Below the pieces are notes generated by a model. That model was not told the DNA's origin. It saw only the letters and a program-made list of their open reading frames with translations, and ran no database searches. Below, in pieces: positions 4,989-30,391 of a DNA stretch of 30,391 nucleotides. Numbering within the stretch: position 1 is the first letter of the stretch; every line of letters begins with the position of its first letter. The stretch is from a virus. Location: positions 1-30,391 of the IMG/VR virus record IMGVR_UViG_3300023179_000359; one strand, 5' to 3'. The translations under genes and the position numbers were made by a program.

Positions 4989-4996
4989 ACAAATAC

Positions 4997-6869: not shown

Positions 6870-6873
6870 AATA

Positions 6874-6881: not shown

Positions 6882-6906
6882 TAATATAATATATAGGTAT
6901 TTTATC

Positions 6907-6940
6907 AAAAAAAAACACCATATATACATATGGTGTTTTT
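6907..6940 (-). terminator. Intrinsic terminator after the tail tube gene
   Basis: There is a 13-bp perfect stem (6911-6923 with 6928-6940; core CACCATAT / ATATGGTG) and a 4-nt loop. On the minus strand it runs into a stretch of nine T. It separates the abundant sheath/tube transcript from the genes downstream. A near mirror-image T run on the plus strand means it could work both ways. Confidence 0.88.
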
Positions 6941-6952
6941 GAAGATTTTAAA

Positions 6953-7591: not shown

Positions 7592-7607
7592 TTATAATTC
7601 TCCTAAA

Positions 7608-16325: not shown

Positions 16326-16607
16326 ATGAGTTTATCAATAGAAAAAAGTGATGTATTTCAAAAAGAATATTCTTCTTGGAACATGAAATTAGAAAAAATA
16401 CAAAATGAATCGATTAAAAAAGAATTAACAGGACTGCTCAACAGTCTAGTAAAAACAGTCAGACTATTAGATACCTGTCACAATGATCTAGGAACTGCTA
16501 ATCGTATTAGTGCAAATGCCTTAGAATTTAGACAGTCTATATACGAATTAAGAACTAATATTCATAAGAAATTTCAAGAGGTTGAAGCAGTAGAAGGTCC
16601 ATTATAA
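16326..16607 (+). CDS. Small helical, coiled-coil-like hypothetical protein
   Basis: This 93-residue protein of unknown family is predicted almost entirely helical from its heptad-like spacing (WNMKLEKIQNESIKKELTGL, LVKTVRLLDTC, FRQSIYELRTNIHKKF). It follows the Nudix gene by nine bases with no clear ribosome binding site. It converges with the halogenase gene, their 3' ends overlapping by 34 bases. It ends the plus-strand island. The consistent reading frame and codon use resemble its neighbours, so I take it as real. Confidence 0.55.
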   Translation: MSLSIEKSDVFQKEYSSWNMKLEKIQNESIKKELTGLLNSLVKTVRLLDTCHNDLGTANRISANALEFRQSIYELRTNIHKKFQEVEAVEGPL

Positions 16608-18079
16608 ATCATTTCTAAATACTGATAATGATTAGGAAAACAGTCAATTTCCATATTAGTCCTAACTTTTAACATTTCTTTTTGAATATTATAATAATCT
16701 ATATCAGTTATATTTCTTTTTTCATTTAGATATTGCCCACAGGCATTTATTACTTGAAACCATTGCCCACTATGAAACATAGTGAAATTATATTCTTTAA
16801 ATAATTCTTCTGGAGGGGTTGGTATAAAATTCCTAAGTATTTCTTTGATAAATTCGGGCATAGGAACATCGTCAAAATATTTCCAAAAATCTGTATCTTT
16901 TTTCGAATTAGTTTTATAATGAATATGTATAAAAGCCAATATCTCTCTGAATAAATCACTGTATAAATCGTTTATACTATCTTTTAGAGCATCACAAAAC
17001 TCTAAATTAAAACTCTTTAGGTATGAAACCAACATTTCTAAAGATTTAGTAGTAAATGTAATGCCAGTAGCTTCTAACGGTTCGACGAACCCTCCGCTTA
17101 GACCAACAGCTATGACATTTTTATAACAAATTTGCTCTTTATAACCGGTTTTCATATCTAAATGAATTACATCCGTAGTATAATCGTTAACACTTTGTCT
17201 AAACTCTAATTCAGCTTGATCCTTAGTAATGAAGCTTGAACTATATACATAGCCATTTCCAATTCTTCCAAAGGTAGGAATAGTCCATTTCCATCCGCTA
17301 TTCATCGCTGTTGACTTAGTGTAAGGATGACATTCATTATAAGGATTCTTGTAGTTTGTAGGCATAGCTATAGCTTTGTCGCATGGCAATAAACTATCAA
17401 TCTTTAAATGTTTTATTCCTAAGTATTTTTCTAATAATAATGATTTAAATCCGGTACAGTCGAGATATAAATCAGACTTTACTGTTTGAGTTTCTAAAAT
17501 AATCCCATCGATTCCCTGATGTGTCACTTTTACATCAACTATTTCTCCATCAATGTAATTAATCTTATCTTTAACTTTATCTTGTAAAGATTTAACAATT
17601 TTTATAGCATTGAAATGAACAGCTTCTGAAGATTGAACTTTTGAACCAACTACAAAATCTAAATCCTTTGAAAATTTAGGACTTTTATTAGCCTTAGCTA
17701 ATCTATAGGCGGGTAGCCAATCATAATACTCATTAGGATTTATACCTACCCAATAATTATGTACTAGCCTGCTTGGAGATACTATGTGTGTCAAAGTACT
17801 ATCGTTGTCGACAAAAAAAGAATCTTTTTGCCATCCTATAAATTCTACTCCTAGTTTGTAAGTGGCATCACTACTTTTCATCCAATCTTCAGGATTTAGG
17901 CCGCAATTCCTTAAGAAAGTAGTGGTGTAAGGTTGAGTTCCTTCTCCTACACCAATTGTTCCAATTTTAGTGCTTTCTATCAAAGTAACATTTAAGCTGG
18001 GTAGATTATGATTAATATAACAAGCAGCAAGCCAACCACTGGTTCCACCGCCAACTATACAGACAGATTGAACCCTCAT
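16574..18079 (-). CDS. Flavin-dependent tryptophan-halogenase-family enzyme (copy 1)
   Basis: This 501-residue protein (PrnA/RebH about 530) has the FAD-binding VGGGTSGW at residues 9-16 and GVGEGTQP at 43-50. The lysine matching PrnA Lys79 is K75 in DATYKLGVEF. The family motif WxWxIP is W263/W265 in SGWKWTIP. FVEPLEATG at 331-339 places E336 at the PrnA Glu346 position, with the Thr-Gly of the halide site kept. Such enzymes use FADH2, oxygen and halide to form a HOX equivalent that halogenates indole or phenol rings. Cyanophage relatives exist, and one (VirX1) has been shown to be an active halogenase. The substrate is unknown. No dedicated flavin reductase is visible, so a host one would be needed. 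It is the last gene of the fibre-adhesin operon. Confidence 0.9.
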   Translation of the reverse strand: MRVQSVCIVGGGTSGWLAACYINHNLPSLNVTLIESTKIGTIGVGEGTQPYTTTFLRNCGLNPEDWMKSSDATYKLGVEFIGWQKDSFFVDNDSTLTHIVSPSRLVHNYWVGINPNEYYDWLPAYRLAKANKSPKFSKDLDFVVGSKVQSSEAVHFNAIKIVKSLQDKVKDKINYIDGEIVDVKVTHQGIDGIILETQTVKSDLYLDCTGFKSLLLEKYLGIKHLKIDSLLPCDKAIAMPTNYKNPYNECHPYTKSTAMNSGWKWTIPTFGRIGNGYVYSSSFITKDQAELEFRQSVNDYTTDVIHLDMKTGYKEQICYKNVIAVGLSGGFVEPLEATGITFTTKSLEMLVSYLKSFNLEFCDALKDSINDLYSDLFREILAFIHIHYKTNSKKDTDFWKYFDDVPMPEFIKEILRNFIPTPPEELFKEYNFTMFHSGQWFQVINACGQYLNEKRNITDIDYYNIQKEMLKVRTNMEIDCFPNHYQYLEMIYNGPSTASTS

Positions 18080-18080
18080 T

Positions 18081-18740
18081 TTAATTAAAACTTGTTGTGC
18101 CAGCAGTGCCTACACCGTAATTAAATTTTTCATCACCGTGATAATCAACATTAAAAGTTTGTCGTAATCCTGGACCTTGTGGATATACTCCATGTAGCAT
18201 AAAACTTGGAAAAATTATAAGCATTCCTTCATGAGGAGTAATATGCATTACCCTAGTCCCAGGAATAGATATTTCACTATAACTTCCTCCATCCATGATA
18301 AAATACACTGATCCGGTTGTATAAGGAGGATCGTTATCATTTTTTTTAGGAACAGCAGTGTAAGTTATAGTGCTAATAGACCCCGGACCATGCTCGTGTA
18401 CAGTATGCCAGCTACCTTGTTCTCCTTTTACTGTCCAGGCACTCTTAGCATAGAGTCTGTTCCAACTAAATGGCATTATACCGTGATGAATTAATTCTTT
18501 TTGTACAACCATTGCATACTTTTCTTTTATGGTGTCCCACTGTTGAGGATACGTATGATCATTACTTGGCATCCAAGTCGGTGGTATAATGTAATGTTGT
18601 TTAGAATTTATTCCTTTAGCACTGGTAAATTCTGCATAATTTTGTTTGTCAACATCTTCTAGCATTTCTTTTATATCAGAAATATTGTCTATCTGTGTTA
18701 TAATTAACCAGTTTTTTCCTTGGCGAAAAATTTGTGTCAT
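18081..18740 (-). CDS. 2-oxoglutarate/Fe(II) oxygenase-like protein
   Basis: This 219-residue protein has the double-stranded beta-helix pattern of the 2OG-Fe(II) oxygenase superfamily, close to the putative-oxygenase group common in marine phages. SWHTVHEHGPGSIS (H112, H115, H117 as possible iron ligands) is followed by strands ISTITYTAVP and GSVYFIMDGG. Then comes PHEGMLIIFPSFMLHGVYP with distal H183 and R193 as the likely 2OG-binding arginine. Such enzymes hydroxylate proteins or small molecules. The start overlaps the end of halogenase copy 2 (ATGA at 18737-18740), and halogenase copy 1 begins one base after its stop. It is therefore sandwiched between the two halogenases, suggesting a shared substrate or pathway. 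Confidence 0.75.
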   Translation of the reverse strand: MTQIFRQGKNWLIITQIDNISDIKEMLEDVDKQNYAEFTSAKGINSKQHYIIPPTWMPSNDHTYPQQWDTIKEKYAMVVQKELIHHGIMPFSWNRLYAKSAWTVKGEQGSWHTVHEHGPGSISTITYTAVPKKNDNDPPYTTGSVYFIMDGGSYSEISIPGTRVMHITPHEGMLIIFPSFMLHGVYPQGPGLRQTFNVDYHGDEKFNYGVGTAGTTSFN

Positions 18741-20227
18741 ACAGTCTCCGGATTATCCATCAGCCATTGTAATGCTTGTCTATGACTAAATGCCTTGCCT
18801 TTAGAAATTCTTAGTTCTATATCTTGTAGCATATTTTTGTAGTTTATACCTATAGAGTCTTGGACATGCTTAGGTTGTCTTAGTAACTCTTTCATTGCAA
18901 TTTCCTTACTGATAAGTCCTAGACCATGTAAAACAACTATATAGTTAGATTCTTTAAACATCACTGTTCGACTAGGAAACTCACTTACACTAGGAAATTT
19001 ATTTTTCCATATCTCAAGTTTTTCTTCTAAAGATGGAAATTTAGGCAAATTTTTTACACTTTTCCAAAAATCAGTATCTTCACGAGGAGTCATATAGTGA
19101 AGTTGAACAAATTCTACGATATTTTCTAGCAGTTCGTCGGATAATTTATTAAAAGTTCTTTGAGCATAGTCTATTGTAGAACCTGGTATATAAGATGAAA
19201 TAGCAGTTGAAAAATAATATGCTTGTTGAATACTAGATCCAATACTACTTGCTTCTAATGGTTCAATAAAACTACAACTCAGACCTATTGCACAGCAATT
19301 TTTTACCCAGGATTTTTCTAAACATCCCGCATCAAATTTAATTTTTTTAGCTATTTCAACTTTTTGACCATATAATTTCTCTACTTCTAATTGCGCTTGA
19401 TCAAAATCCATAAATGAATCTTGAAATACATATCCATTGCCGAATCTTTCTTGAGTGGGAATTCTCCATAACCATCCGCTATCCATGGCTTTTGATAATG
19501 TCCAACTAGGAATGTCATCTTTCTTTTCAGTTGGAAAAGCTATCGCACTATTCATTGGCAAATATTTGTTGTAGCTTCTCCAAGGAACACCCATTGCTTT
19601 ATGTAATAATAATCTATGAAATCCTGTGCTATCAATATAAAATTGATATTTTAATTTATTACCTTCTTGATCAATAAGATAGTCAACAGCTCCTGTTTCA
19701 TCTAATTTAACTTGTTCTATTTCAGCACGAATAACTCCAATATCTCTTTCTTGACAAATAGTATGCAAATAATTATTAAGTTTAAAAGTATTAAAATGAA
19801 ACTGGTTTACTCCCCAGAACGGTTCAAGATGAAGGTTTTGTTCTATATAAGGCATGACAAGACTTTTCGGACCTAGTCCTTCGCTTATTGGATATACATA
19901 CATTATTTTACTGTGTGTTTGTGTTTCCACATTCATATTACCTGAAACATTATGTATATAATTTGTTCCATCTCCGAGCCAATTTGAAAAATTAATTCCG
20001 TATTTAAATGTACAATCTGTATGGGTAATTAATTCTGACATACTGATACGGCAATCACCTGTAAAATTTGCCCAATGTTCTGTGCTACCTTCACCTACAC
20101 CTACAATACCAATTTTTTCAGATTCGATTAAATCGATTTTTAAATTAGGATGAGTTTTCCTAAGAATTAAGGCGGTGACTAAACCTGCTGTTCCACCGCC
20201 TACAATAGCGATATTATCTAATAGCAT
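18737..20227 (-). CDS. Flavin-dependent tryptophan-halogenase-family enzyme (copy 2)
   Basis: This 496-residue protein starts at ATG 20227 (MLLDNIAIVGGG), which has CGGAG seven bases upstream. A longer in-frame ORF to 20311 would run through the previous gene. Motifs are VGGGTAGL at 9-16, GVGEGSTE, the catalytic-type lysine K75 in DCTFKYGINF, WxWxIP at W252/W254 in SGWLWRIP, and IEPLEASS with E325 at the PrnA Glu346 position. The halide-site Thr-Gly of copy 1 is replaced here by Ser-Ser. The downstream helix (IGSSIQQAYYF) also differs, so the two copies are diverged rather than recent duplicates. It overlaps the methyltransferase-like gene by 14 bases and the oxygenase by four. Confidence 0.88.
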   Translation of the reverse strand: MLLDNIAIVGGGTAGLVTALILRKTHPNLKIDLIESEKIGIVGVGEGSTEHWANFTGDCRISMSELITHTDCTFKYGINFSNWLGDGTNYIHNVSGNMNVETQTHSKIMYVYPISEGLGPKSLVMPYIEQNLHLEPFWGVNQFHFNTFKLNNYLHTICQERDIGVIRAEIEQVKLDETGAVDYLIDQEGNKLKYQFYIDSTGFHRLLLHKAMGVPWRSYNKYLPMNSAIAFPTEKKDDIPSWTLSKAMDSGWLWRIPTQERFGNGYVFQDSFMDFDQAQLEVEKLYGQKVEIAKKIKFDAGCLEKSWVKNCCAIGLSCSFIEPLEASSIGSSIQQAYYFSTAISSYIPGSTIDYAQRTFNKLSDELLENIVEFVQLHYMTPREDTDFWKSVKNLPKFPSLEEKLEIWKNKFPSVSEFPSRTVMFKESNYIVVLHGLGLISKEIAMKELLRQPKHVQDSIGINYKNMLQDIELRISKGKAFSHRQALQWLMDNPETV

Positions 20228-20699
20228 TTGGGTTCTCCGAAAGATCTGATGGCCGTGGGTTATGAGGAATTTTACAAGTGTGCAAAGTTGATTCTGCCAT
20301 AAAAATTTCATTTACTAAATCAAAGTGTCTCTGTAAAGTAAATGCTAGTCCTATAGTTTTCCAATGCTGTTTCCAGGCAGGATCGGTATTTGGCATTAAG
20401 TCATATTTGTATTCATATATACAAACAGTTTCGGATAAGTTTTTAATTTTTTCTATGAAACTAGCTGGTTGTTCTATTATTTCAAGGCCTGCCGACACAA
20501 CAATAGTATCAAATCCACTAATCTTTTCTAGATCAAAATCGGAATTAAAGTCTATTTTAACATCCGATTTATCTTCGATTCCTGCTGTCTTATAATTGGT
20601 AAAATTATTATATTTGTCTAACCGTTCTTCATTAAATGCGACATGAAGTATAGTTTGATCTGAGCTTAAAAGTTTTGATAAAACTTCAATGTGATTCAT
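20214..20699 (-). CDS. Rossmann-fold, methyltransferase-like protein (tentative)
   Basis: This is a 161-residue protein. The C-terminal half has the shape of a class I methyltransferase: SGFDTIVVSAGLEIIEQP, a helix, ETVCIYEYKYDLMP, and DPAWKQHWKTIGLAFTLQRHF, ending MAESTLHTC. The N-terminal half is short and lacks an obvious Gly-rich SAM-binding loop (LHVAFNEERLDKY at that position), so catalytic ability is doubtful. AAGGAT precedes ATG 20699. It follows the adhesin array by 54 bases and overlaps the start of halogenase copy 2, making it the first gene of the modification cassette. It could be a degenerate methyltransferase, a substrate-binding partner or something unrelated. Confidence 0.5.
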   Translation of the reverse strand: MNHIEVLSKLLSSDQTILHVAFNEERLDKYNNFTNYKTAGIEDKSDVKIDFNSDFDLEKISGFDTIVVSAGLEIIEQPASFIEKIKNLSETVCIYEYKYDLMPNTDPAWKQHWKTIGLAFTLQRHFDLVNEIFMAESTLHTCKIPHNPRPSDLSENPNAIR

Positions 20700-20753: not shown

Positions 20754-21266
20754 TTATACAGGAACATATTCTTCAATTATCATCTGACCTGGGCAGTCAT
20801 AAGCATTACCGCCGCCGTCCCAGTATTGAGTATGCCATAAATGAGCATTATGACTTCCTTCATTATAACTACGACATTTAAACCCTATTCTTCCATATGC
20901 TTCTGCTCCCCAACTAGGAACATCATATTGTATTGTATTAGTATTCTCTACGTGATGACCGCCTCGTGTAAACCGTCCAATTTCAACTTCGTCAAGATAA
21001 AAAATATAGTGCATGATCATATGTTGTCCCGCGCCGTACTGACGAGTGAATATGTTATAGCTAGCTCTTATCCGTGTATCACCTCGAATTGGTCTATAAT
21101 CCATGTAAGCGCCAGGAACCCAATAATAGGCATTATTTCCTCTCCACCATCCGCTACGATGTATATAATTCGTTCTCTGAACTATTCGTCTTTTAAAATG
21201 ATCTGCTGTTATACTAAATGTATTGCCTTCATTAGTAAGTGTATCAACTTGTAAAATGCCGGTCAT
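20754..21266 (-). CDS. Family-A Trp/Tyr-rich adhesin-like protein, copy 1
   Basis: This 170-residue member of the six-copy family starts at ATG 21266 (MTGILQVDTL), which forms ATGA with the upstream stop. Family marks are RRIVQR, GNNAYYWVPGAY, DVPSWG, GRIGF and QYWDGGGNAY, ending IIEEYVPV. It is one of the more diverged copies. The GG-WNP motif is changed to SGWWRGNN, and the middle segment carries IFYLDEVEIGRF rather than the usual HWxFYAN. The N-terminal M-T-x-L-x-V-x-T-L start is shared with short tail-fibre/receptor-binding proteins of marine T4-like phages. Its location at the end of the fibre operon supports a virion adhesin; no enzymatic motif is seen. Confidence 0.65.
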   Translation of the reverse strand: MTGILQVDTLTNEGNTFSITADHFKRRIVQRTNYIHRSGWWRGNNAYYWVPGAYMDYRPIRGDTRIRASYNIFTRQYGAGQHMIMHYIFYLDEVEIGRFTRGGHHVENTNTIQYDVPSWGAEAYGRIGFKCRSYNEGSHNAHLWHTQYWDGGGNAYDCPGQMIIEEYVPV

Positions 21267-21772
21267 GCTGCTGTCCACTCCTCTACGCTAACCCAACTAG
21301 GAACACCTCTAGTACTATCTGCTCCGTCTATAAATCGTCTTGCATTGTAATGAATGCTGTGATTACTGTCGGTATATTGTCTAGTAGTATAGCCCATTGC
21401 GCCTGTTTTACCGGCACCCCAACTTGGCACTTCCCATCGCCGTATAGACCCTTGTTCATTATGATCATTACTTACACTATGCCTTGCAAATTCTAGACCG
21501 TTGGCATAAAATATCCAGTGGCTTATACTATGGGCGGCACCCCTATGTCCCAACGGACACATCCATGTATAAATGAGATAACTGTTACTGTATAAAGGAG
21601 TAATGCTTAACCAACTTCCTGGAACTTCATAGTAATTGTTACCCGGATTCCAAGCACCACCTTTAAACCAACGAGTAGTTCTTTGTATAAGTCGTCTATT
21701 AAAGTTTTTTGTACTAAGATTTACTGAATTTGCAGTATTTCTAACAGTATTAACTATTAAAGTTCCGGTCAT
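21263..21772 (-). CDS. Family-A Trp/Tyr-rich adhesin-like protein, copy 2
   Basis: This is a 169-residue paralog. GGAWNPGNNYYEVPG and HSISHWIFYANGLEFARHS match the family closely. The C-terminal YWDGGG is degraded to RFIDGADS, and the protein ends VSVEEWTAA. It begins one base after the stop of the 21774-22103 gene and overlaps copy 1 by four bases. This is the most unusual C-terminal half of the set, so its binding surface may have changed. Function is inferred only from position and similarity to its neighbours. Confidence 0.65.
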   Translation of the reverse strand: MTGTLIVNTVRNTANSVNLSTKNFNRRLIQRTTRWFKGGAWNPGNNYYEVPGSWLSITPLYSNSYLIYTWMCPLGHRGAAHSISHWIFYANGLEFARHSVSNDHNEQGSIRRWEVPSWGAGKTGAMGYTTRQYTDSNHSIHYNARRFIDGADSTRGVPSWVSVEEWTAA

Positions 21773-21773
21773 A

Positions 21774-22103
21774 TTAGGGCTTTGGGTAATCTTGTTTTAT
21801 CTGTTCTCGTCTAGCCTGCAATTCATTGGCCATCTCTGGGCGATTTTCTACTACTTTTTCCCATAGAGCAACAATCATATCATCTCTGCTGGGGTACCTA
21901 CCAGGCATACTACGAGCTTCGGCAACTTTTCTCAATGCTACCTGATCTTTAATAGTTTCCCATTTTGCTGTGAGTTCTTCGACAGAAGGTTTAGGTTCAA
22001 CTTCCATCCATGTAATATCGTCATACCTTGGACCTCTTACTCCATATTGACGGCCGGCATAGAATTTATGCATAACTTCACCGAAATCAACTTCATCAGT
22101 CAT
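21774..22103 (-). CDS. Putative tail-fibre assembly chaperone-like protein (short)
   Basis: This 109-residue acidic protein has an internal coiled-coil-like helix (VEELTAKWETIKDQVALRKV). The segment RYPSRDDMIVALWEKVVENRP resembles the YPS-x-x-(E/D)QLDALW element found in small proteins encoded next to phage tail fibres. AAGGAG precedes ATG 22103. It interrupts the family-A array between copies 2 and 3. A chaperone or accessory role for fibre folding is inferred from the motif and place. Confidence 0.5.
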   Translation of the reverse strand: MTDEVDFGEVMHKFYAGRQYGVRGPRYDDITWMEVEPKPSVEELTAKWETIKDQVALRKVAEARSMPGRYPSRDDMIVALWEKVVENRPEMANELQARREQIKQDYPKP

Positions 22104-22125
22104 TCTATTCTCCTTATTCCTTTAT

Positions 22126-22683
22126 TTACCTTGCTGTAATTGTTTGTCTTGTAGCATCGCCTACTGCTGTTGGTTCTCCTGCTCCTAGGTACTCTTCTAC
22201 TATTAGTTGTCCACGAGAATTTTGAGCACTACGACCACCACCGTCCCAATAATATGTAGTATATAACCTAACTTCATGGTTATCATTTGAATATGATCTT
22301 ACTTGATAACCTATACGGCCGGCACTGGTTCCCCAACTAGGAACATCCCATTGAATAATATTACCATCTTCTATATGAACACCCGATTGACTATGCCAAT
22401 AATACAAAATATTATTAACGAAAAACCTCCAGTGACTGATACCATGACTAGCGACTACCCATGCATGGGGCACTCTCCACATGAAATGAATTCTAGATTC
22501 TGCGCTTCTTGGAGTAAAATCTACAAATCCTCCTGGAACCCAGGTACTGGTATTATCCGGGTTCCATTCACCACCGGTATAAGTATTTTCATATCTTTGT
22601 ATAACGCGAGCTGTTAATTCTTCCAAAGGCACAACTATGGTACCTAATCTGTTAGAAATAGCATTTAGTCTAAGTGTACCCAT
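22126..22683 (-). CDS. Family-A Trp/Tyr-rich adhesin-like protein, copy 3
   Basis: This is a 185-residue paralog with nine Trp by eye. Conserved elements in order are RVIQRYENTYTGGEWNPDN, TWVPGGFVDFTP, SESRI-type SAESRIHF, HGISHWRFFVNN, WDVPSWGTSAGRIGYQVRSY, NDNHEVRLYTTYYWDGGG and LIVEEYLG. It has a 15-20 residue C-terminal tail (GEPTAVGDATRQ...) that the other copies lack. It starts at ATG 22683 in a TAATG overlap with copy 4. It shares long, nearly identical DNA blocks with copy 4. Confidence 0.7.
   Translation of the reverse strand: MGTLRLNAISNRLGTIVVPLEELTARVIQRYENTYTGGEWNPDNTSTWVPGGFVDFTPRSAESRIHFMWRVPHAWVVASHGISHWRFFVNNILYYWHSQSGVHIEDGNIIQWDVPSWGTSAGRIGYQVRSYSNDNHEVRLYTTYYWDGGGRSAQNSRGQLIVEEYLGAGEPTAVGDATRQTITAR
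22214..22289. repeat. Near-identical 76-bp DNA block, copy in adhesin 3
   Basis: This block matches 22717-22792 with a single mismatch, an offset of 503 bases. It encodes the NDNHEVRLYTT / YWDGGGRSAQNSRG part of copies 3 and 4. A second identical 27-bp block at the same offset lies at 22444-22470 and 22947-22973, with more diverged sequence in between. Confidence 0.9.
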
Positions 22684-23186
22684 TAGTAAAGTAACTCCTC
22701 AATTATCATGTGTCCCCGAGAATTTTGAGCACTACGACCACCACCGTCCCAATGATATGTAGTATATAACCTAACTTCATGGTTATCATTTGCATGTGAT
22801 CTGTGCTGAAGACCAATGCGACCAGAGCTTGTGCCCCAACTAGGAACTTCAAACTGATAGGTTTTACCGTTTTCAATATGAGTTCCGCTTTCACTCCAGT
22901 TATAGTATAAAATATTATTAGCATAAAAATACCAATTACTAATAGCATGACTAGCGACTACCCATGCATGGGGAATTCTACAAGTGAATTTTATTCTGCT
23001 GTCTGCTCGTCGAGGAGTCATATCATAAAAGGCACCTGGTATCCATGTATATGTATTATCAGGATTCCATTCTCCCCCAGTATATTGTGCTTGATAACAT
23101 TGTATCACTCTTTGTTTAAGTTCTCGTGCAGGAATATTCACTGTGCCTGCTACATCTCGTAATGTTTCAACTGTTAAGGTTCCCAT
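22683..23186 (-). CDS. Family-A Trp/Tyr-rich adhesin-like protein, copy 4
   Basis: This 167-residue paralog starts at ATG 23186 (MGTLTVETLRD), which overlaps the stop of copy 5 in TAATG. The longer in-frame start at 23231 lies inside copy 5 and is rejected. Marks are RVIQCYQAQYTGGEWNPDN, YTWIPGAFYDMTP, HAISNWYFYANN, VPSWGTSSGRIGLQHRS, YHWDGGGRSAQNSRG and MIIEELLY. It is closest to copy 3, with which it shares almost identical DNA in the 3' part, while the regions facing the loops differ. Confidence 0.7.
   Translation of the reverse strand: MGTLTVETLRDVAGTVNIPARELKQRVIQCYQAQYTGGEWNPDNTYTWIPGAFYDMTPRRADSRIKFTCRIPHAWVVASHAISNWYFYANNILYYNWSESGTHIENGKTYQFEVPSWGTSSGRIGLQHRSHANDNHEVRLYTTYHWDGGGRSAQNSRGHMIIEELLY
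22717..22792. repeat. Near-identical 76-bp DNA block, copy in adhesin 4
   Basis: This is the partner of 22214-22289, with one mismatch. Such a match is far stronger than the protein-level family similarity requires and points to recent duplication or gene conversion. Confidence 0.9.
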
Positions 23187-23695
23187 TATACACCTACCAA
23201 ATATTCTTCTATTACGAGCTGTCCAATACATACCTGGGCGCTGGCGCCGCCGTCCCAGTATTGAGTCGTATATACTCTTACTTCATGATTATCATCTGCA
23301 TAGGATCTGTTCTGATAGCCTATACGACCAGTACTAGTTCCCCAACTGGTAAAATCCCAAATATAGGTACTCATATCTTCGAGATGATTTCCGCTAATAC
23401 TATGCCTACCAATTTCCACACTGTTAGCATAAAATACCCAATGACTTATTCCAAGAGCGTTGCCACTATTTCGCGAATATGGAATATGGCAATAAGTTCT
23501 AATTCTACTACTGGCACTAGCCGGAGTATAATCAAAAAACATTCCAGGGATCCATTGGTAAGTGGTTGTTGGATTCCATTGTCCGCCATTATAAGTTTGA
23601 CGATAACTTTTGATTACTCTATGACTCAATTCAGTTAAAGGAATCTGAGTTCTAGTTTCATCGACTGTTAAATTATCTACTATTATAGTACTCAT
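23186..23695 (-). CDS. Family-A Trp/Tyr-rich adhesin-like protein, copy 5
   Basis: This is a 169-residue paralog. Marks are RVIKSYRQTYNGGQWNPTT, YQWIPGMFFDYTPASASS, LGISHWVFYANSVEIGRHS, GTSTGRIGYQNRSYADDN and YTTQYWDGGASAQVC, ending VIEEYLVGV. ATG 23695 overlaps the stop of copy 6 (ATGA). It shares a 53-base DNA block, one mismatch, with copy 6 over the GMFFDYTPASASSRIRT region. Otherwise it resembles copies 3 and 4 at the C-terminus, so it is a mosaic of the family. Confidence 0.7.
   Translation of the reverse strand: MSTIIVDNLTVDETRTQIPLTELSHRVIKSYRQTYNGGQWNPTTTYQWIPGMFFDYTPASASSRIRTYCHIPYSRNSGNALGISHWVFYANSVEIGRHSISGNHLEDMSTYIWDFTSWGTSTGRIGYQNRSYADDNHEVRVYTTQYWDGGASAQVCIGQLVIEEYLVGV
23496..23548. 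repeat. 53-bp DNA block shared with adhesin copy 6
   Basis: This block matches 23993-24045 with one mismatch, an offset of 497 bases. It encodes PGMFFDYTPASASSRIRT in copies 5 and 6. Confidence 0.85.
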
Positions 23696-24192
23696 GGTAT
23701 TGCAAAATATTCCTCTATTCTGAATTCAGCCATGGCATTTTGATTGCTGCCACCGCCGTCCCAATGATGTGTTCCATGGATTCGTGGCTGGTTACTGCCG
23801 GAATAGGCTCTCATTTGATAACCAATACGGCCGGCACTGGTTCCCCAACTAGCGAAATCCCAAACATAGGTATGTCTATGTTCTGGGCTTTGTCCGGCTA
23901 TGCTATGTCTTCCTATCTCAGTTCCATTAGCATAAAAAATACAATGACAGATTGCATGTCCACTAGCATGACTATAGCTAAAACAAATAGTGGTTCTAAT
24001 TCTACTACTGGCACTGGCCGGAGTATAATCAAAAAACATTCCAGGAGCCCAATCATACGCTGTACTAGGGTTCCAAGATCCGGCATTGTATGTAGACCTA
24101 TAATCTTTTATAGTTCTTTGTCGAAGTTCACTTAAAGGAATTGTAAACTCCGATGTAACGCCTTGAATGTTATCAACTCTTATTGTGCTCAT
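23692..24192 (-). CDS. Family-A Trp/Tyr-rich adhesin-like protein, copy 6
   Basis: This is a 166-residue paralog. Marks are RTIKDYRSTYNAGSWNPST, YDWAPGMFFDYTPASASS, HAICHCIFYANGTEIGRHS, DFASWGTSAGRIGYQMRAY and HHWDGGGSNQNAMAEF, ending RIEEYFAIP. The usual HWxFYAN Trp is Cys here. ATG 24192 overlaps the stop of the 24189-24620 gene (ATGA). It is the first family-A gene in transcription order. Confidence 0.7.
   Translation of the reverse strand: MSTIRVDNIQGVTSEFTIPLSELRQRTIKDYRSTYNAGSWNPSTAYDWAPGMFFDYTPASASSRIRTTICFSYSHASGHAICHCIFYANGTEIGRHSIAGQSPEHRHTYVWDFASWGTSAGRIGYQMRAYSGSNQPRIHGTHHWDGGGSNQNAMAEFRIEEYFAIP
23993..24045. repeat. 53-bp DNA block shared with adhesin copy 5
   Basis: This is the partner of 23496-23548, with one mismatch, lying in the middle of copy 6. 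Confidence 0.85.
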
Positions 24193-24620
24193 CTAAGATG
24201 CCTATATCTTGCATGTCCCGCAGGTTCACCATCTGGTCTTATGGGCCAATCTACACCTAACAATTCTCCTGATTCTAATCTAGGAGTAGCTGTTTTTGTA
24301 ATATCTGCCAATGCTTGAAAATAGTCACGCCATTCTTGAGAAATTTCTTCACCTGTTCTCATGGCTCTAATTACTACCCAATCTACTTCTCTCATTCTAG
24401 CATCACGAACTCTTCTTAGCACTCTCATTGGAGCAGCTGATAGTAATTCTTCGGCTTTTGCTAGGATCGCTTCATCAGTAGGTCTTAACGTGGGGTCTGA
24501 TTCCCAAACAAGTCCTTCTAGTCCATCACCCTCTATTCTCCATGTTGCATTAGGCTGTAAAGCATGGATAGCATCCGGTATGGGTAAAATTCTTCTACTT
24601 GAATTCCTTACTTCAGTCAT
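24189..24620 (-). CDS. Putative tail-fibre assembly protein-like (XkdW/TAC-type region)
   Basis: This is a 143-residue protein. The C-terminal half reads VLRRVRDARMREVDWVVIRA, then EEISQEWRDYFQALADI. This follows the R-x-x-RD-x-L-x-x-(T/S)DW...W-x-x-Y(R/F)-x-AL pattern of small proteins encoded beside phage tail fibres and often called assembly chaperones. Marine T4-like phages carry similar ones. It lies exactly between the family-B and family-A adhesin sets and overlaps copy 6 by four bases. AAGGA precedes ATG 24620. The role is inferred from the motif and context. Confidence 0.6.
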   Translation of the reverse strand: MTEVRNSSRRILPIPDAIHALQPNATWRIEGDGLEGLVWESDPTLRPTDEAILAKAEELLSAAPMRVLRRVRDARMREVDWVVIRAMRTGEEISQEWRDYFQALADITKTATPRLESGELLGVDWPIRPDGEPAGHARYRHLR

Positions 24621-24638
24621 GTTCTAATTCCTTCATAC

Positions 24639-24646
24639 TATTTATG
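24639..24646 (-). promoter_or_regulatory. Possible internal late promoter for the family-A array
   Basis: Minus-strand CATAAATA (one mismatch) ends 18 bases before ATG 24620, leaving room for the AAGGA ribosome binding site. It overlaps the stop codon of the preceding gene. It could give the array and halogenase cassette separate late expression from the main fibre gene. Confidence 0.4.
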
Positions 24647-25256
24647 ATGCTATTTCTTGAGCAATAGCAAAACTTACTCCTTGTTCGTAGGCGTCTGCAC
24701 CATTTTGATAATTGGTAAATGTGCAATTTAGTGTAAATGTTTGATTGCTACCTCCAGAACTTTTCACAGCCAGGCTATAAGTAACCCATTCTGTTGTACC
24801 TGGACGATCTACCCAAGGAACTTGAATATAATGTGGTGTACTATCATTGTTATTATCATATATAGAAACACCGATTCCCTGTTGTCTACTTGCCCCGTAA
24901 AAACCTATTACGCTAGCATCAGGTTGTGCTACTCCTACCATATTCATATCTCGTAATATAGTATACACTGTATCCTGTCCGGCTTCATAAAAAACATTAA
25001 ATTCTACAAAGATAAAACTATCTGCACTCATAGGACGAATGCTTACATCTAGTGGTCTTATAATTACTCCACCTTCGTGCACACCTTCTGCAAATATGTC
25101 CGCTCTCATTCCACCGTCGTTATTAGGTATTGAATAATATAGTCTTTCCATAGACACTGTATGTCTTACTTGAACTATATGGCCAGGAGCATATATTCTG
25201 TTAGGATGATTTACCCTTACTGGTCCGGTGATTGTATCAACTTTTAAAGTGCTCAT
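24642..25256 (-). CDS. Family-B adhesin-like / short tail-fibre protein, copy 1
   Basis: This 204-residue protein starts at ATG 25256 (MSTLKVDTITG), which forms ATGA with the upstream stop and has GGGAG upstream. Marks of the family are YAPGHIVQVRHT, RPMSADSFIFVEFNVFYEAGQD, DSTPHYIQVPWVDRPG, TYSLAVKSSGG and a C-terminus ending GVSFAIAQEIAS. The GHIVQV start followed by a beta-rich globular part is typical of fibre-tip proteins in T4-like cyanophages. It carries an extra loop (RADIFAEGVHEGG) compared with the other two copies. Receptor binding is inferred. Confidence 0.7.
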   Translation of the reverse strand: MSTLKVDTITGPVRVNHPNRIYAPGHIVQVRHTVSMERLYYSIPNNDGGMRADIFAEGVHEGGVIIRPLDVSIRPMSADSFIFVEFNVFYEAGQDTVYTILRDMNMVGVAQPDASVIGFYGASRQQGIGVSIYDNNNDSTPHYIQVPWVDRPGTTEWVTYSLAVKSSGGSNQTFTLNCTFTNYQNGADAYEQGVSFAIAQEIAS

Positions 25257-25801
25257 CCTGCAATCTCCCTTGCAAATCCCCAACTATGACCTACTTCGTT
25301 TCCGTCGGTGCCAACATTTCCAATTGGTCTATTGAAAGCAAATGTATGTGTACCACTACTACTACTTCTTACTGCTAAACTATAAGTTCTTGCTGCGGTA
25401 TTCAAAGCAGGATCAAACCAATTAACAGTGCTAATCAAAGGAGTACTACTGTCATCGCCAGCATAATTAGGAGCTAGAATTCCTGACCACCTAACATTGC
25501 CTCTTAGTGTGTTATACCCTATTAAATTTCCATCCTTATGAACTAAAAACATATTATCTTGTTGTAATTCATAAAATATTGTCCATCTTAACCATATAAC
25601 ACTATCGGCTCTTACTGGTGTTATAGTTAAATTCAATTGTGTAATTGCTACTCCATTTCCGCTAGGACTTGATGTATAAGTTGTTCTGACACTTGAACTT
25701 GCTTGTACATATTGAATAATAGTTCCTTGTTGTATGAGGCCATTATTTACAGTTAGTTGCGTTCCAGTGGACGGAGCCAGTCCACCTACTGTAACAGTCA
25801 T
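25253..25801 (-). CDS. Family-B adhesin-like / short tail-fibre protein, copy 2
   Basis: This 182-residue paralog starts at ATG 25801 (MTVTVGGLAPS), preceded by AGGAG and overlapping the upstream stop by ATGA. The longer start at 25825 lies within copy 3. Marks are QQGTIIQYVQAS, TPVRADSVIWLRWTIFYELQQD, YNTLRGNVRWSGI, SSTPL, TYSLAVRSSSSG, and HSWGFAREIAG at the end. The NVRWSGI segment is shared with copy 3 but not with copy 1. Confidence 0.7.
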   Translation of the reverse strand: MTVTVGGLAPSTGTQLTVNNGLIQQGTIIQYVQASSSVRTTYTSSPSGNGVAITQLNLTITPVRADSVIWLRWTIFYELQQDNMFLVHKDGNLIGYNTLRGNVRWSGILAPNYAGDDSSTPLISTVNWFDPALNTAARTYSLAVRSSSSGTHTFAFNRPIGNVGTDGNEVGHSWGFAREIAG

Positions 25802-26364
25802 ACCGCAATCTCCTGTAAAATACACCAGCTTACTCCGCCTTCGTGATCATCTTGAAAGGCACCCCAGGCACGATTAATTCTAATATCATAATTTGTACCA
25901 GTGCTGCTTCTAGACCCTAAACTATATGTATGAGGACCCACACTTCCTGGTTGATCAACCCAGCACATGTGTTCGTAAGCAGGAGTACTACTTAAATCAT
26001 GCTGATGAGAATATTGACCAACACCTATACCGCTCCAACGAACATTACCTACTTCTGTATTATATCCTATTACAGTATTATTTCTCTTAGCTTGGAATGT
26101 TACATCATGATGACATTCATAAAACAACCACCATTGACAAATTACTCTGCTATTAGCTCTTTTAAGGGTTATAATAGTATTCAAACCTGTAATATCTCTA
26201 CTATTATTGTCATTATAACTGTTATAGGTAGCATGATTGTCCATCTTTGTCCATACTGTTTGAATACAATGTCCTGGGGCATATAGTATACTTCCTCTAG
26301 GGAACCCTATAAGATGATTCCCGTCTTGCCTGCCAGCCAGTTCGTCTACTACCAGTGTACTCAT
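25798..26364 (-). CDS. Family-B adhesin-like / short tail-fibre protein, copy 3
   Basis: This is a 188-residue paralog beginning MSTLVVDELAG. Marks are YAPGHCIQTVWTKMD, TLKRANSRVICQWWLFYECHHD, YNTEVGNVRWSGIGVG, DLSSTPAYEHMCWVDQPG, TYSLGSRSSTG and GGVSWCILQEIAV. ATG 26364 overlaps the stop of the 302-residue fibre protein by one base (TAATG). The family-B core (ANSRVICQWWLFYE) has the same layout as the family-A core (S-R-I...HW-x-FYAN), suggesting both families share one fold. Confidence 0.7.
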   Translation of the reverse strand: MSTLVVDELAGRQDGNHLIGFPRGSILYAPGHCIQTVWTKMDNHATYNSYNDNNSRDITGLNTIITLKRANSRVICQWWLFYECHHDVTFQAKRNNTVIGYNTEVGNVRWSGIGVGQYSHQHDLSSTPAYEHMCWVDQPGSVGPHTYSLGSRSSTGTNYDIRINRAWGAFQDDHEGGVSWCILQEIAV

Positions 26365-27272
26365 TAAACTATACTCCAGTCACCGTTAACTGTAACAGTT
26401 TGTCCACTAGCAATTGTGATAGGTCCTGCGCTCATTCCATTAGTTCCTGATGGAATTGTGATTGTTTCATTAATGGTACTAGAGTTAGTTCTAATTATGG
26501 CATTAGTTCCTAGTGTAGGCTGTAGTGTTCCTAGAGAACTTTGAGTAACTACCGTAGAACTGTTCATTACAATATTTCCGCCTACATTTAGGCCTCCGCT
26601 TATACCTACTCCACCTGTTACTACCAGTGTTCCTGTAGTCGTAGAGGTAGAAGTTACATTATCAGACATCAAAACACTGGCTGTTGCCTTAGTTGCATTA
26701 GTGGTGCCGTTGATAGTTAGTGTGCCGCTAGCACCGCTACTTCCTGTAACTGTTGGATGTTGTCCAATACTGCTGATTAATCTATTTTCGCTAGGGATAA
26801 ATGTTAATCCAGTATCAACTCGCATGGTACTTTGAGCACCGGTAGGAGCACTACCCTCTGTGGGTGTACTAGTTCCGAAATATAAAAAATGCGTATTTGA
26901 GTTAGATCCTGCGTCGCTAACTGTCAAAGCTGCTGTAGGAACTGCTTGCCAACTTGTTACTCCGCTGCCGTCTGTTTGCAAAAAAGCACCAACAGCACCA
27001 TTGCTATTAGGTAATTGAAAAGTAGTATTCGCACCTAAATTACTAATAGCTTTTACTGCGCTGTAGAAAGTATTGGCAGTATTATACGCCCTCATTTCAC
27101 CGTTAGTTCTAAGTTGAAGTCCGCCTAGAAATTGAACAGTACCAGTTCCGTTAGGATCAATAATAATATCTTGATTAGTTACTGCTGTAGTCAAGGTATT
27201 TTGACCGGATGCATAAATCGAGCCTAACCCTGCTCCACTTCCTGCCACACCTGTGCTTATTTGTCGTCCCAT
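26364..27272 (-). CDS. Tail-fibre-like structural protein
   Basis: This is a 302-residue protein, rich in Gly, Ser, Thr and Asn. It has repeated short beta-strand units such as TGTVQFLGGLQL, GGVGISGGLNVGGNIVMN and PSGTNGMSAGPITIASG, ending VTVNGDWSIV. This is the pattern of fibrous, trimeric phage tail-fibre shafts, and related proteins lie beside fibre genes in T4-like cyanophages. AAGGAT precedes ATG 27272. It lies between the 113-residue structural protein and the family-B adhesins, so it may form the stalk on which adhesin tips mount. That last point is inference. Confidence 0.7.
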   Translation of the reverse strand: MGRQISTGVAGSGAGLGSIYASGQNTLTTAVTNQDIIIDPNGTGTVQFLGGLQLRTNGEMRAYNTANTFYSAVKAISNLGANTTFQLPNSNGAVGAFLQTDGSGVTSWQAVPTAALTVSDAGSNSNTHFLYFGTSTPTEGSAPTGAQSTMRVDTGLTFIPSENRLISSIGQHPTVTGSSGASGTLTINGTTNATKATASVLMSDNVTSTSTTTGTLVVTGGVGISGGLNVGGNIVMNSSTVVTQSSLGTLQPTLGTNAIIRTNSSTINETITIPSGTNGMSAGPITIASGQTVTVNGDWSIV

Positions 27273-27284: not shown

Positions 27285-27626
27285 TTAGACTGTTGTTGTT
27301 TCTATGCCCATGATTACCACACTCAAACCTAATCCAGTGCCTGCACCTCTCACACTGATATATTTCCCAGAATCTAGCACTAGACCGGTTCTTTCAAGCA
27401 CACCATTTGCCAATATTTGTGAATCGTATTCTAAAAATTCTCCATCTGTTGGGGCAGTAGGAGCAATTGTATTAGTAACTGCTAGTCTTATACTTGCAAC
27501 ATTTGTACTGCTTCTATTCGCAATGCTCACTGTTACTACACTGAATGTATTAGCCGGTACCTGATATGGAGTATAGTAGGTATTCGCTGTTGTAATATCT
27601 TGGATTCCCAATCTTCCTGTAGCCAT
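27285..27626 (-). CDS. Small conserved virion protein of marine T4-like phages
   Basis: This 113-residue beta-rich protein has the recognisable pattern MATGRLGIQDITTANTYYT, VPANTFSVVTVSIANRSS, and ANGVLERTGLVLDSGKYISV, ending VIMGIETTTV. Close counterparts occur next to fibre genes in many marine T4-like phages and are annotated as structural or hypothetical. The size and strand pattern suggest a single jelly-roll-type domain. GGAGA precedes ATG 27626. It lies 11 bases after the large fibre gene. Confidence 0.7.
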   Translation of the reverse strand: MATGRLGIQDITTANTYYTPYQVPANTFSVVTVSIANRSSTNVASIRLAVTNTIAPTAPTDGEFLEYDSQILANGVLERTGLVLDSGKYISVRGAGTGLGLSVVIMGIETTTV

Positions 27627-27637: not shown

Positions 27638-30391
27638 TTAATTGTTTAAGAAATAATTCCAGGCTATCGGTAACCCTTTAACCCCGCCTGTAAAATTAAA
27701 GTTAGCCTTCATTGTAATTGCCTGTCCTGTTGTAGTCGAAATAGTAGTTCCTGCAATTTCAATAAATCCTGCTACTACACTATTTACGTTAATCGAAGCG
27801 CCACCACCACCGATTTGTGCAGCAATATATGATCTAATTGCTCGCTGAGTTGGCACGACACTATCACTGTTTGCTGTAAAGAACGGATCTGTGCTAAATT
27901 CAGTAATAGTAGCACTTGTTCCTCCTAATGTCACAGCACCAAGTGTAAGTTCACTAAGCCCTGCAATATTAAATGCATCTGCATTCAATGTAGCAACACC
28001 AGTGCTTTGTTCAATAGTGAATAGTTCACCTACTCTAAAATTACCATCTTGATCAGTACTTGTATAGAATACACGACCACCATTATTATCAACAGTTTCA
28101 TTAGCTTGGCTTGGAACTTGGCTTGGAACACCAGGATAATTAGTTTCTGCAAAACTTCCTGTACCTATATCTAAGAAATCATGTCCTGTCAAACGAACTT
28201 GACTATATCTGATTCTAGTCACTGCTCCTGTACCGTCTTCTGGAGAATCATATAAGGTTAGATCTGGACTTATTTGTAAGAAAGCTTTAATAGAACCATC
28301 ATTAACTCCTTGTAAACTTAATACTTGAACAAGTTTATATGTCCTGTTTGGTAAGTTAGAAAATACGACATTAGCACCTGCCTGAGGAGTTCCAGTTAAC
28401 CTTCTAACTGCTATAAACTTTCCGCTTTGGTAGTTGTTAGCATAACCGTCACCTGTGTCAATACTTACAATTACATTGTTATAACCAGTTCCTCTATTTC
28501 TAAAACTTGGCTGTGCGATTACTCCGTTACCTACTCTCACTGTGAATGGAGCTTCATAAATGTTATTAGGGTCAGTGATAGTCATGACAGGAACACTACC
28601 ATAACTAGATCCTGGTTCTATTATTCGTATATCATAGATTTTTTCATCTTGCACATAACATCTAGCTTTAGTTCTACATCCTAAAACTGCTCTACTTGCA
28701 GCACTAGTGCTTGCACTAGGAACTACTACCCAACACGGAACTGCTGTTGGATTTCCGTGAACTGCTTTTTTAAATCCTGTCCCACTTGCTCTTGTAAGTA
28801 TTCTGTCAGTCCAGTTTATACCATCTTCTGAACTTGAAGCAGTATTAGTATTGTTGACAGCTAAAAATACTCCTTGTCCGTAACTTATATTAGTATAACT
28901 TGCACTCTCGCTTAGAGTAACACTGACCCAATTGACTCCACCGTCAATAGTGTAAGCAGCAGTTGTTCCTGTATCTGCACTTATTGCTATAAATCTATTA
29001 TTTCCATATGCAATTCTGGTCCATTGATTTGTACCCACATTGGGTAGTTGGCCGCCAGCAGTCCATGTTGTTCCTCCATCTGTGCTATAAGCACTATTTC
29101 TAGAACCGTTAGCTATAGCTACCCATTTACCTTGTCCGTATGTTACAGCACTCCAATTAGAAGCAGTAGGCATTACACCTCCTGTTTGCCATGCTCCTAC
29201 ACCTCCAGTAGTGCTCCAGTTTGTTTGAGTAGTTCCAGATTTTACTACTACCCATCTTCCTGCGCCATTAGCTAATTTTCCATAAGCAATTGCAGTATTG
29301 GTAGTAGCAGCACCTGTTAGACTCTGCCCTGCTGTCCAACTTACTCCTCCGTCTTTGCTGTAAGCAGTTGCATTGCTACCATTGGCTATAGCCACAGTTA
29401 ATTTTTCAAAAGCTGTAGCAGTACCTGTACCTGTACCTGTACCTGTTGCTATAAAGTAATCTCCAAGTTTGACTTGTAGGTTAGTTGCTGCTGGATGCCC
29501 TATTAGTGTCCATTGTGTAGTTGCAAGAGCAGTAATTTTATAACTCCGTCCTACTACAAAAGATCCTGCTTGAGTCGGAGTTGTTTCGATCACTTCACCG
29601 GTTGCCATTGCAGTCCATGTCAAACTACTAGGTAATACACCAGTTCTAGTAACCCAATTAATTCCATCAGATGAAGTTATAGGAGTTTGGCCTGTGTTAG
29701 GTAAAGCAATAAAATTTCCTGTTAAAGCATTACCTACATATTCAAACTCGATTATTGAACCATTAGTACTGTTTACTGTAGTTAAAGTTATTGTGATGTC
29801 ATGTACTCCTGTTACACCTCCAACATCTGCACCAACAATAGTAATAGTATCTAATCTAGCATAATTTATTCCAAGATAACCTGGAATTAAAGTTAGTGAG
29901 CTATACTTTCCGGCACGCTTTACAACTACAAATCTTGCTCCTGAACCACCTCCGTTACTTGTTCCAGTAATTGGATAAAAGACTCTAAATGTTTCTGCCC
30001 ATACTGTATCATTATAAATTTGAGCATTTGATAATGTCATATTGACGCTTGTATAGCTAGGACTTGCAAAGCTTATTCTTGGTTCGATAGTGTAACTTGA
30101 ACTTGCGTCAGGCGCAACTATTGTAGTTCCTGGTACCCAATGATCCCAGCCTGCTGTTCCATCACTTTCTTTTATGATAGTTAAATCTTTAGTACCAATA
30201 TTATAAGCAGTAATTTGAGCATATTGTCCTGCTCCGGAACCTGATGTAATCACAATTCTCATACCAACATAAGCAGCAGCAATTTCGGCATCGACAGCAG
30301 CAATTTTTATTCCTGTAGTAGTTCCTGATTGTGCCACATTACTGTTAGTGAGATATCCAAATCCTCCAAAATTACCAAGTGCCTCTGGAGC
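27638..30391 (-). CDS. Large tail-fibre / structural protein with Asp-box repeats (5' end outside window)
   Basis: At least 917 residues. The frame stays open through the 54 bases upstream of the GTG at 30337 to the window edge, so the gene begins to the right. The middle holds five Asp-box (BNR/sialidase-type) motifs: SSDGINW, SKDGGVSW, STDGGTTW, TIDGGVNW and SEDGINW (28811-29674). They are interspersed with YGxGxWVAV-type strands, which suggests a beta-propeller. A VGRSYKITALATTQWTLIG unit with a TGTGTGT run is inserted between the first two. The C-terminal 200 residues (DQDGNFRVGELFTIEQ, LNADAFNIAG, SDSVVPTQRAIRSYI) are typical of virion structural proteins of T4-like cyanophages. No catalytic sialidase residues are evident, so a binding role is more likely. 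Confidence 0.85.
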   Translation of the reverse strand, partial: APEALGNFGGFGYLTNSNVAQSGTTTGIKIAAVDAEIAAAYVGMRIVITSGSGAGQYAQITAYNIGTKDLTIIKESDGTAGWDHWVPGTTIVAPDASSSYTIEPRISFASPSYTSVNMTLSNAQIYNDTVWAETFRVFYPITGTSNGGGSGARFVVVKRAGKYSSLTLIPGYLGINYARLDTITIVGADVGGVTGVHDITITLTTVNSTNGSIIEFEYVGNALTGNFIALPNTGQTPITSSDGINWVTRTGVLPSSLTWTAMATGEVIETTPTQAGSFVVGRSYKITALATTQWTLIGHPAATNLQVKLGDYFIATGTGTGTGTATAFEKLTVAIANGSNATAYSKDGGVSWTAGQSLTGAATTNTAIAYGKLANGAGRWVVVKSGTTQTNWSTTGGVGAWQTGGVMPTASNWSAVTYGQGKWVAIANGSRNSAYSTDGGTTWTAGGQLPNVGTNQWTRIAYGNNRFIAISADTGTTAAYTIDGGVNWVSVTLSESASYTNISYGQGVFLAVNNTNTASSSEDGINWTDRILTRASGTGFKKAVHGNPTAVPCWVVVPSASTSAASRAVLGCRTKARCYVQDEKIYDIRIIEPGSSYGSVPVMTITDPNNIYEAPFTVRVGNGVIAQPSFRNRGTGYNNVIVSIDTGDGYANNYQSGKFIAVRRLTGTPQAGANVVFSNLPNRTYKLVQVLSLQGVNDGSIKAFLQISPDLTLYDSPEDGTGAVTRIRYSQVRLTGHDFLDIGTGSFAETNYPGVPSQVPSQANETVDNNGGRVFYTSTDQDGNFRVGELFTIEQSTGVATLNADAFNIAGLSELTLGAVTLGGTSATITEFSTDPFFTANSDSVVPTQRAIRSYIAAQIGGGGASINVNSVVAGFIEIAGTTISTTTGQAITMKANFNFTGGVKGLPIAWNYFLNN
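28811..29674 (-). repeat. Five Asp-box (BNR-like) repeats in the large fibre
   Basis: The motifs sit at 29654-29674, 29336-29359, 29063-29086, 28928-28951 and 28811-28831, each S/T-x-D-G-(G)-x-x-W. A degenerate copy (STTGGVGAW) lies between the second and third. Spacing is irregular because of inserted units. Confidence 0.75.
29421..29446. repeat. Hexanucleotide tandem repeat (GTACCT)4 plus partial
   Basis: There are four perfect copies of GTACCT followed by GT. On the minus strand it encodes the alternating Thr-Gly run TGTGTGTAT in the large fibre. The unit length keeps the reading frame if copy number changes. Confidence 0.85.

Follow-up and report, generated by a model that had tools for sequence, protein, structure and literature searches.

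Why a freshwater phage should carry nine short, related genes behind its tail-fibre genes is the question raised by the window analysed here, the whole 30,391-nucleotide stretch of IMG/VR record IMGVR_UViG_3300023179_000359. The genes could supply a mixed set of receptor-binding tips or a stock of adhesins held in reserve, as the initial annotation had proposed, or they could be parts of one structure.

The array covers positions 20754-26364 on the minus strand and comprises nine open genes, six of family A and three of family B, nearly all of them overlapping (Table 1). It had been described as an uninterrupted tandem run; all nine members are real, but they are not contiguous, with a chaperone gene (C1) between B3 and A1 and a chaperone-like gene (C2) between A4 and A5, in the order B1-B2-B3-C1-A1-A2-A3-A4-C2-A5-A6. 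Start codons were corrected to inner ATGs for B2 (25801), B3 (25256), A3 (23186) and A6 (21266). The ATGA and TAATG overlaps reported between adjacent family members were found again, four of the former and two of the latter in six junctions, and the stop of the upstream gene cap2 overlaps the B1 start via TAATG. Pairwise identity is 28-66% among the six A members (blastp E 1e-21 to 1e-83) and 32-39% among the three B members (E 5e-22 to 5e-28), well above what chance would give. The N-terminal motif said to be common to both families, M(S/T/G)TL-x-V-x-(T/N)-L, holds only approximately, since B2 starts MTVTVGGL and in several members the motif closes with I or V, while the proposed S-R-(V/I)...W-x-FY core is present in most A genes and looser in B.

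Table 1. Features of the array and its flanks, by descending position
Feature	Position	Strand	Description
Long tail-fibre gene	27638..30337	-	Upstream of array; phrog_9851 tail fiber protein, E 3e-49; runs toward contig end
cap1	27285..27626	-	Small fibre-associated gene; phrog_11338 tail fiber, E 7e-7
cap2	26364..27272	-	Fibre-associated gene; phrog_7459, E 5e-7; phrog_5342 tail fiber, E 2e-4
B1	25798..26364	-	Family B, 188 aa; predicted TNF/C1q-like jelly roll; orthologues form own clade, support 100/99
B2	25253..25801	-	Family B, 182 aa; family-B representative for structure model
B3	24642..25256	-	Family B, 204 aa; clade 100/99
C1	24189..24620	-	Tail-fibre assembly chaperone; PF16778, E 8e-12; phrog_4912 tail fiber assembly, E 6e-10
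A1	23692..24192	-	Family A, 166 aa; orthologue clade 98/95
A2	23186..23695	-	Family A, 169 aa; family-A representative for structure model
A3	22683..23186	-	Family A, 167 aa
A4	22126..22683	-	Family A, 185 aa
C2	21774..22103	-	Chaperone-like gene, 109 aa; phrog_9114, E 1e-6
A5	21263..21772	-	Family A, 169 aa; orthologue clade 100/98
A6	20754..21266	-	Family A, 170 aa; orthologue clade 94/83
Small gene	20214..20699	-	Between array and halogenase; tblastn match in 7/7 relative loci tested
Trp halogenase 1	18737..20227	-	Flavin-dependent; PF04820, E 1e-97; VirX1 (6qgm), E 6e-40
2OG-Fe(II) oxygenase	18081..18740	-	PF13759, E 8e-12
Trp halogenase 2	16574..18079	-	PF04820, E 2e-97

The suspicion that both families have one fold is supported: profile-profile alignment lines up A and B collinearly along 156 columns (E 1.3e-5, from this one comparison), and separate AlphaFold2 models of one A and one B protein match the same TNF/C1q-like structures, two-sheet beta jelly rolls. 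These single-chain models, of A2 (pLDDT 88.1, pTM 0.78) and B2 (pLDDT 88.6, pTM 0.81), are the two predicted structures on which the fold matches rest, and matches were compared by VIA Z scores. The A2 model matches the TNF-like lectin PLTL (Z 13.0, rmsd 2.4, 123 aa), the C-terminus of Pgp3 (Z 12.3), the N-terminus of BC2L-C (12.2) and C1q (9.9), and the B2 model matches the C-terminal domain of Pgp3 (Z 14.3, rmsd 2.2, 132 aa), PLTL (11.6) and C1q (9.4). PLTL, Pgp3, BC2L-C and C1q are trimeric proteins, and the TNF/C1q-like jelly roll is usually trimeric around a three-fold axis. Spore coat proteins were also among the fold matches, placing the TNF-like fold in non-receptor roles as well. No match to TNF/C1q families was obtained in Pfam for eight of the A/B genes (all but A3) or in NCBIfam for any of the nine. 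Family B matches residues 494-656 of 'orf22' in PDB 9efk by sequence (E 1.5e-7), where orf22 is present in 18 copies; a literature search on the 9EFK entry found nothing. On the models and the profile alignment, every A and B protein is predicted to be a TNF/C1q-like jelly roll.

The initial reading of these proteins as tail adhesins is supported by their position directly behind fibre genes, by the embedded chaperones and by the resemblance of B to the C-terminus of a tail-fibre PHROG. C1 scores 45.3 bits against PF16778, above the curated gathering score of 26.6. C2 gave no PF16778 match in the Pfam scan and is linked to C1 in the array solely by phrog_9114, which C1 also matches (E 1e-4); in relatives, the profiles of C1 and C2 show weak matches to each other, and C2 is 61-78% identical across lineages. 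B1, B2 and B3 match the last ~180 residues of phrog_6942 (E 2e-12, 8e-15 and 1e-10), a domain that is fused there to a fibre of ~700 residues, whereas B stands alone in three copies; in family A, A5 alone gives a score against phrog_6942, and a marginal one (E 0.046).

Known phage systems resemble this arrangement in part. In Pam3, the chaperone gp25 binds the trimeric, TNF-like fibre protein gp24 in a 3:3 complex (PMC9608196); a TNF-like domain at the distal fibre, predicted for the array, and a dedicated chaperone are common to both. However, a single chain makes up the gp24 homotrimer and bears a glycine-rich tip (39% Gly over 125 residues; PMC9608196), whereas the array consists of separate short chains with 8-11% Gly, at most 8 Gly per any 40 residues and no glycine-rich domain. 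HMO-2011 likewise has a long fibre gene followed by an overlapping run of many short 'tail fiber' genes, with PF16778 chaperones interleaved among them, but the families and copy numbers are others. One HMO-2011 member matches phrog_6942 and another is a Pfam C1q protein, and none matched the A and B profiles; the layout is analogous, with homology seen in the one phrog_6942 member only.

Relatives of the phage show how stable the array is. Every complete array found (12/12, from about seven other lineages) has three B genes and six A genes in one fixed order, with B1-B2-B3 as three consecutive, position-conserved paralogues in every case; among these arrays C2 is degraded in L046/L040 only. 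The A tree requires 6 label changes, where 5 is the lowest possible number and shuffles give 27.8, and its genes group by position and not by phage, in the paired lineages (A1,A2), (A3,A4) and (A5,A6); the exception is L010, where A3 and A4 are each other's closest relatives. Window-type B1, B2 and B3 likewise form one group each in the B tree. Orthologues are 48-82% identical, compared with 37-40% for other pairs, their best match is mostly at the same position, and dN/dS of ~0.02-0.05 indicates strong purifying selection on array genes. No sign of recent array growth was seen. Family A gave no match in named phages when searched with A1 and A2, nor did it turn up in 84,980 genomes of bacteria and archaea. 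One relative (L022) carries C-terminal Ig-like additions, Big_5 on A1 and He_PIG on A6, both above Pfam gathering scores. L054, a phage of simpler make-up, has an A-like domain joined to its collagen-like fibre chain and one B-like gene behind it, an arrangement also found in L023, so proteins of this fold are evidently able to function as homotrimers.

Distant relatives carry these nine genes in an identical order, which suggests one composite tip rather than interchangeable spares, and we consider it an even chance that the array codes for a distal tail-fibre tip that is fixed in composition and hetero-oligomeric. Each A or B protein would then be one TNF/C1q-like subunit preceded by a short, flexible peptide at its N-terminus. 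Since the fold usually assembles as trimers, the likeliest arrangement would be a heterotrimer of B1, B2 and B3 at the end of the fibre and two more heterotrimers drawn from the deep A lineages, three in number (A1/2, A3/4, A5/6), each taking, for instance, one chain from every A pair, with both embedded chaperones serving to place the trimers. The conserved jelly rolls would be the base, with the variable binding parts in loops or, in one relative, in the Ig-like domains fused to A C-termini. We infer that the A and B proteins trimerise, as hetero- rather than homo-oligomers, that the trimers are stacked, and that they sit on the fibre and bind receptors.

Heterotrimers of paralogous chains are known elsewhere. 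The globular head of complement C1q, in which three paralogous chains form one heterotrimer, has the same broad fold and offers an analogy of how such a tip might work, although the eight A/B genes scanned have no sequence match to Pfam C1q. In the virophage DSLV2, the products of three consecutive tail genes, which are related to tail proteins of Synechococcus phages, were co-purified as one heterotrimer of 1:1:1 composition (PMC12724248). DSLV2 and the array are alike in having three consecutive paralogous tail genes (~200 residues in DSLV2) that group by position, but the DSLV2 proteins are of another family and have a collar domain of the gp37 type, PF07484 (PMC12724248), for which B1-B3 gave no match at E up to 1 in the Pfam scan, and the array has nine genes, two families and embedded chaperones. 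Within family B itself, two unrelated cyanophage groups, the S-WAM2-like phages and ACG-2014j, each have exactly three consecutive B genes behind a long fibre gene, followed by a chaperone-like gene as in the array (a PF16778 chaperone in ACG-2014j), but no family-A genes were found there and their paralogues fall into lineages other than those of the window. Because the S-WAM2 trio stands apart from the window-type trio (support 99/97 in the tree with long-branch rows dropped), B trios probably originated on two or more occasions, separately in cyanophages, although in topology tests of the trios some pairings were not rejected (p-AU 0.07-0.18).

The most serious alternative, possible but rather doubtful in our view, is that the genes encode nine separate homotrimers, either as discs stacked on one fibre or on different fibres as mixed receptor-binding tips, which comes nearest to the first of the two readings in the initial annotation. 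Solved TNF-like relatives are mostly homotrimers, the single A-like fusion and lone B-like gene of L023 and L054 point the same way, and a place of its own for each disc in a stack would also give position-wise orthology. Paralogue-specific positions (0.23 in the inner sheet, 0.22 in loops and 0.19 in the outer sheet) are not concentrated on the sheet expected at the trimer interface, which would suit homotrimers; with no enrichment there, residue patterns do not discriminate between hetero- and homo-assembly. Nine homotrimers would, however, leave unexplained why B comes in threes in three phage groups and A as three pairs, and a tandem paralogue trio does form heterotrimers in the virophage (PMC12724248). 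It is quite unlikely that the proteins belong to another virion part with the same fold, for instance a head fibre, a neck fibre or a baseplate decoration: non-receptor roles like that of spore coat proteins would allow this, but direct operon linkage to tail-fibre genes, the PF16778 chaperone inside the array, the match of B to a tail-fibre C-terminus and the same layout behind a long fibre gene in Kyanoviridae all speak against it. Least probable is the suggested stock of reserve adhesins from which the host range could shift through recombination or a change in copy number, for although marine-phage C1q-like domains have been called hypervariable in metaviromes (PMC3909814) and one relative has added C-terminal domains, the invariant copy number and order, the position-wise phylogeny and the low dN/dS argue against a reservoir or recent expansion.

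Downstream of the array lie a small gene with no confident family match and then halogenase and oxygenase genes (Table 1). Trp halogenase 1 accompanies the array in every lineage; of seven relative loci, six contain the 2OG-Fe(II) oxygenase and the seventh ends before its position. An elaboration of the composite tip, which we regard as very improbable, is that the nine chains would stack as three pseudo-three-fold heterotrimers (B1B2B3 and two A trimers) and have Trp/Tyr-rich heads halogenated and/or hydroxylated by these enzymes. The idea is weakened by the halogenase neighbourhoods of S-H38 and P-SSM2, where no annotated tail-fibre gene adjoins; in S-SRM01 and Syn9 halogenases are located among tail-fibre genes. 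The literature found on phage halogenases states no natural substrate, and such a modification, if real, would give them a protein one.

Phage fibre tips are usually pictured as a homotrimer, or as a homotrimer plus one adhesin. If the array does encode a composite tip, some aquatic phages would build asymmetric, hetero-oligomeric tips, much like C1q, and this would explain why the small 'tail fiber' gene clusters of aquatic phages stay together.

The array of nine genes in two families (A and B) proposed in the initial annotation proved real, but two genes lying inside it, C1 and C2, had been missed. In order of transcription, the long fibre gene and two small fibre-associated genes are followed by B1, B2, B3, C1, A1, A2, A3, A4, C2, A5 and A6, and every within-family junction is an ATGA or TAATG overlap. 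The suggestion that both families share one fold also stands, given that their profiles are collinear over 156 columns (hhalign, E 1.3e-5 for a single comparison, probability 81) and that the AlphaFold2 models of A2 and B2, confident apart from the first ~20 residues, each contain eight main strands, arranged in the same order. Among solved structures, both models match TNF/C1q-like jelly rolls best, namely those of PLTL and BC2L-C (two TNF-like lectins), chlamydial Pgp3, BclA and C1q. These proteins form trimers, and some of them (several) are glycan-binding. The B sequence also matches the C-terminal domain of PDB chain orf22 (9efk, 18 copies). Judged from context and predicted fold, we consider the array to be a conserved adhesin-type tip module.

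Coordinates of the tip-gene array and of other features in the window and two other phages
Feature	Sequence	Position	Strand	Remarks
Nine-gene array	window	20754-26364	minus	
Long fibre gene	window	27638-30337		upstream of array
C1, tail-fibre assembly chaperone	window	between B3 and A1		PF16778, E 8e-12
C2, chaperone-like	window	between A4 and A5		
Large terminase	window	1640-3231		two overlapping ORFs, frames differ; Terminase_6N in 2395-3231, Terminase_6C in 1640-2464
TnsA-like endonuclease	window	4997-5428		PF08722, E 1e-22; flanked by the terminase and tail-tube genes
Weak CBM_5_12 (carbohydrate-binding module) match	window	12942-14243	plus	E 2e-4, under curated cut-off; adjoins tail-sheath stabiliser gene
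Two Trp halogenases, 2OG-Fe(II) oxygenase	window	16574-20311		behind array
Short tail-fibre genes (about a dozen)	L066 (HMO-2011)	3339-10028		PF16778 chaperones among them; one Pfam C1q protein
A2	L022	10461-11300		extended at C-terminus

The window spans the whole of an IMG/VR virus record (30,391 bases) that probably covers part of a larger genome. It encodes a myophage (tail sheath, tube, terminase and tail-sheath stabiliser), whose 1020-residue sheath has its closest counterparts, judged by coverage, in jumbo phages (PA5oct and Agrobacterium phage Atu_ph07 among them). The two-frame terminase could be a frameshifted or a split gene, or its layout could stem from misassembly.

Scans of viral contigs showed that about seven other lineages also carry the array (L007-9, L010-12, L018, L019-21/24, L022, L032/33 and L040/46). 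Wherever it is not cut by a contig end, B genes number three and A genes six, the gene order is unchanged and C1 and C2 occupy their places within it, C2 being degraded in L046/L040. The A tree consists of six position groups, not of groups by phage (sole exception, A3/A4 of L010), which form the pairs (A1,A2), (A3,A4) and (A5,A6), and the B tree likewise of three position groups. Identity to the window genes is 48-82% for orthologues and 37-40% for other pairs, and dN/dS between the close relatives L007 and L009 is ~0.02-0.05 for A and B genes, figures that are rough because synonymous sites are near saturation. Together, these data argue that the duplications are old and that every copy was kept for its own role.

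The constant part is a ~165-residue jelly roll, to whose C-terminus display domains attach. Five of the six A genes of L022 are lengthened (280-568 residues), with additions including Ig-like domains in A1 (Big_5) and A6 (He_PIG), and A6 of L019 has a sub-threshold galactose-binding-like match. The L022 A2 extension, which has no Pfam match, contains the motif H...C..H..M, reminiscent of a blue-copper (cupredoxin-like) site; that of A5 resembles it, without the ligands.

Behind the array, every lineage has a small gene without assigned function and then a Trp halogenase (the first of the two in the window), with a 2OG-Fe(II) oxygenase next wherever the contig extends far enough. VirX1 of cyanophage Syn10, an enzyme whose active site is open and whose substrate range is broad (PMC8407142), is a relative of the window halogenase. 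Trp (1.0-5.3%) and Tyr (3.3-8.8%) are abundant in most A and B proteins. Conceivably, the tip proteins are connected with these enzymes. In two named phages the halogenase has no annotated tail-fibre neighbour.

Because the TNF/C1q-like fold is usually trimeric, the B genes number three and the A genes form three pairs, heterotrimers are favoured, and a composite tip, in which a B1/B2/B3 heterotrimer and A-protein heterotrimers would form the fibre end, is the best supported of the readings considered, with roughly an even chance of being correct. Exactly three B genes also stand directly behind the fibre gene in two groups of cyanophages, one comprising S-WAM2 and viral contigs L055-60 (L060 is cut by the contig end), the other ACG-2014j, and in both a chaperone-like gene comes after the trio. 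The S-WAM2 trio separates from the window-type trio (support 99/97, long-branch rows removed). One-to-one pairing of their members is rejected in most cases (p 0.002-0.043; S-WAM2 B2 pairings are not, p 0.07-0.18), so that a set of three probably arose more than once. An experimental precedent comes from a virophage in which three tail genes in succession encode proteins that co-purify 1:1:1 and also group by position (PMC12724248). These proteins belong to the collar-domain (PF07484) type, which was not found in B1-B3, so the resemblance is in way of working, not family membership. In Pam3, a trimeric chaperone loads a TNF-like fibre domain (PMC9608196).

Homotrimers are a possible alternative to the composite tip: the simpler L023/L054 have an A-like domain at the end of a collagen-like fibre chain, then one B-like gene, which is possibly the ancestral, homotrimeric arrangement, and paralogue-distinguishing residues show no concentration on the presumed interface sheet. 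The earlier idea of a reservoir for host-range change is rejected by the constant gene set and order of the uncut arrays found, the clustering by position and the low dN/dS.

In the isolated marine phage HMO-2011, PF16778 chaperone genes lie scattered among short tip genes, forming an array analogous to that of the window and apparently non-orthologous, so the general layout was already known in genomes; no explanation of it was found in the literature. HMO-2011 would provide a cultivable system for tests of the composite tip.
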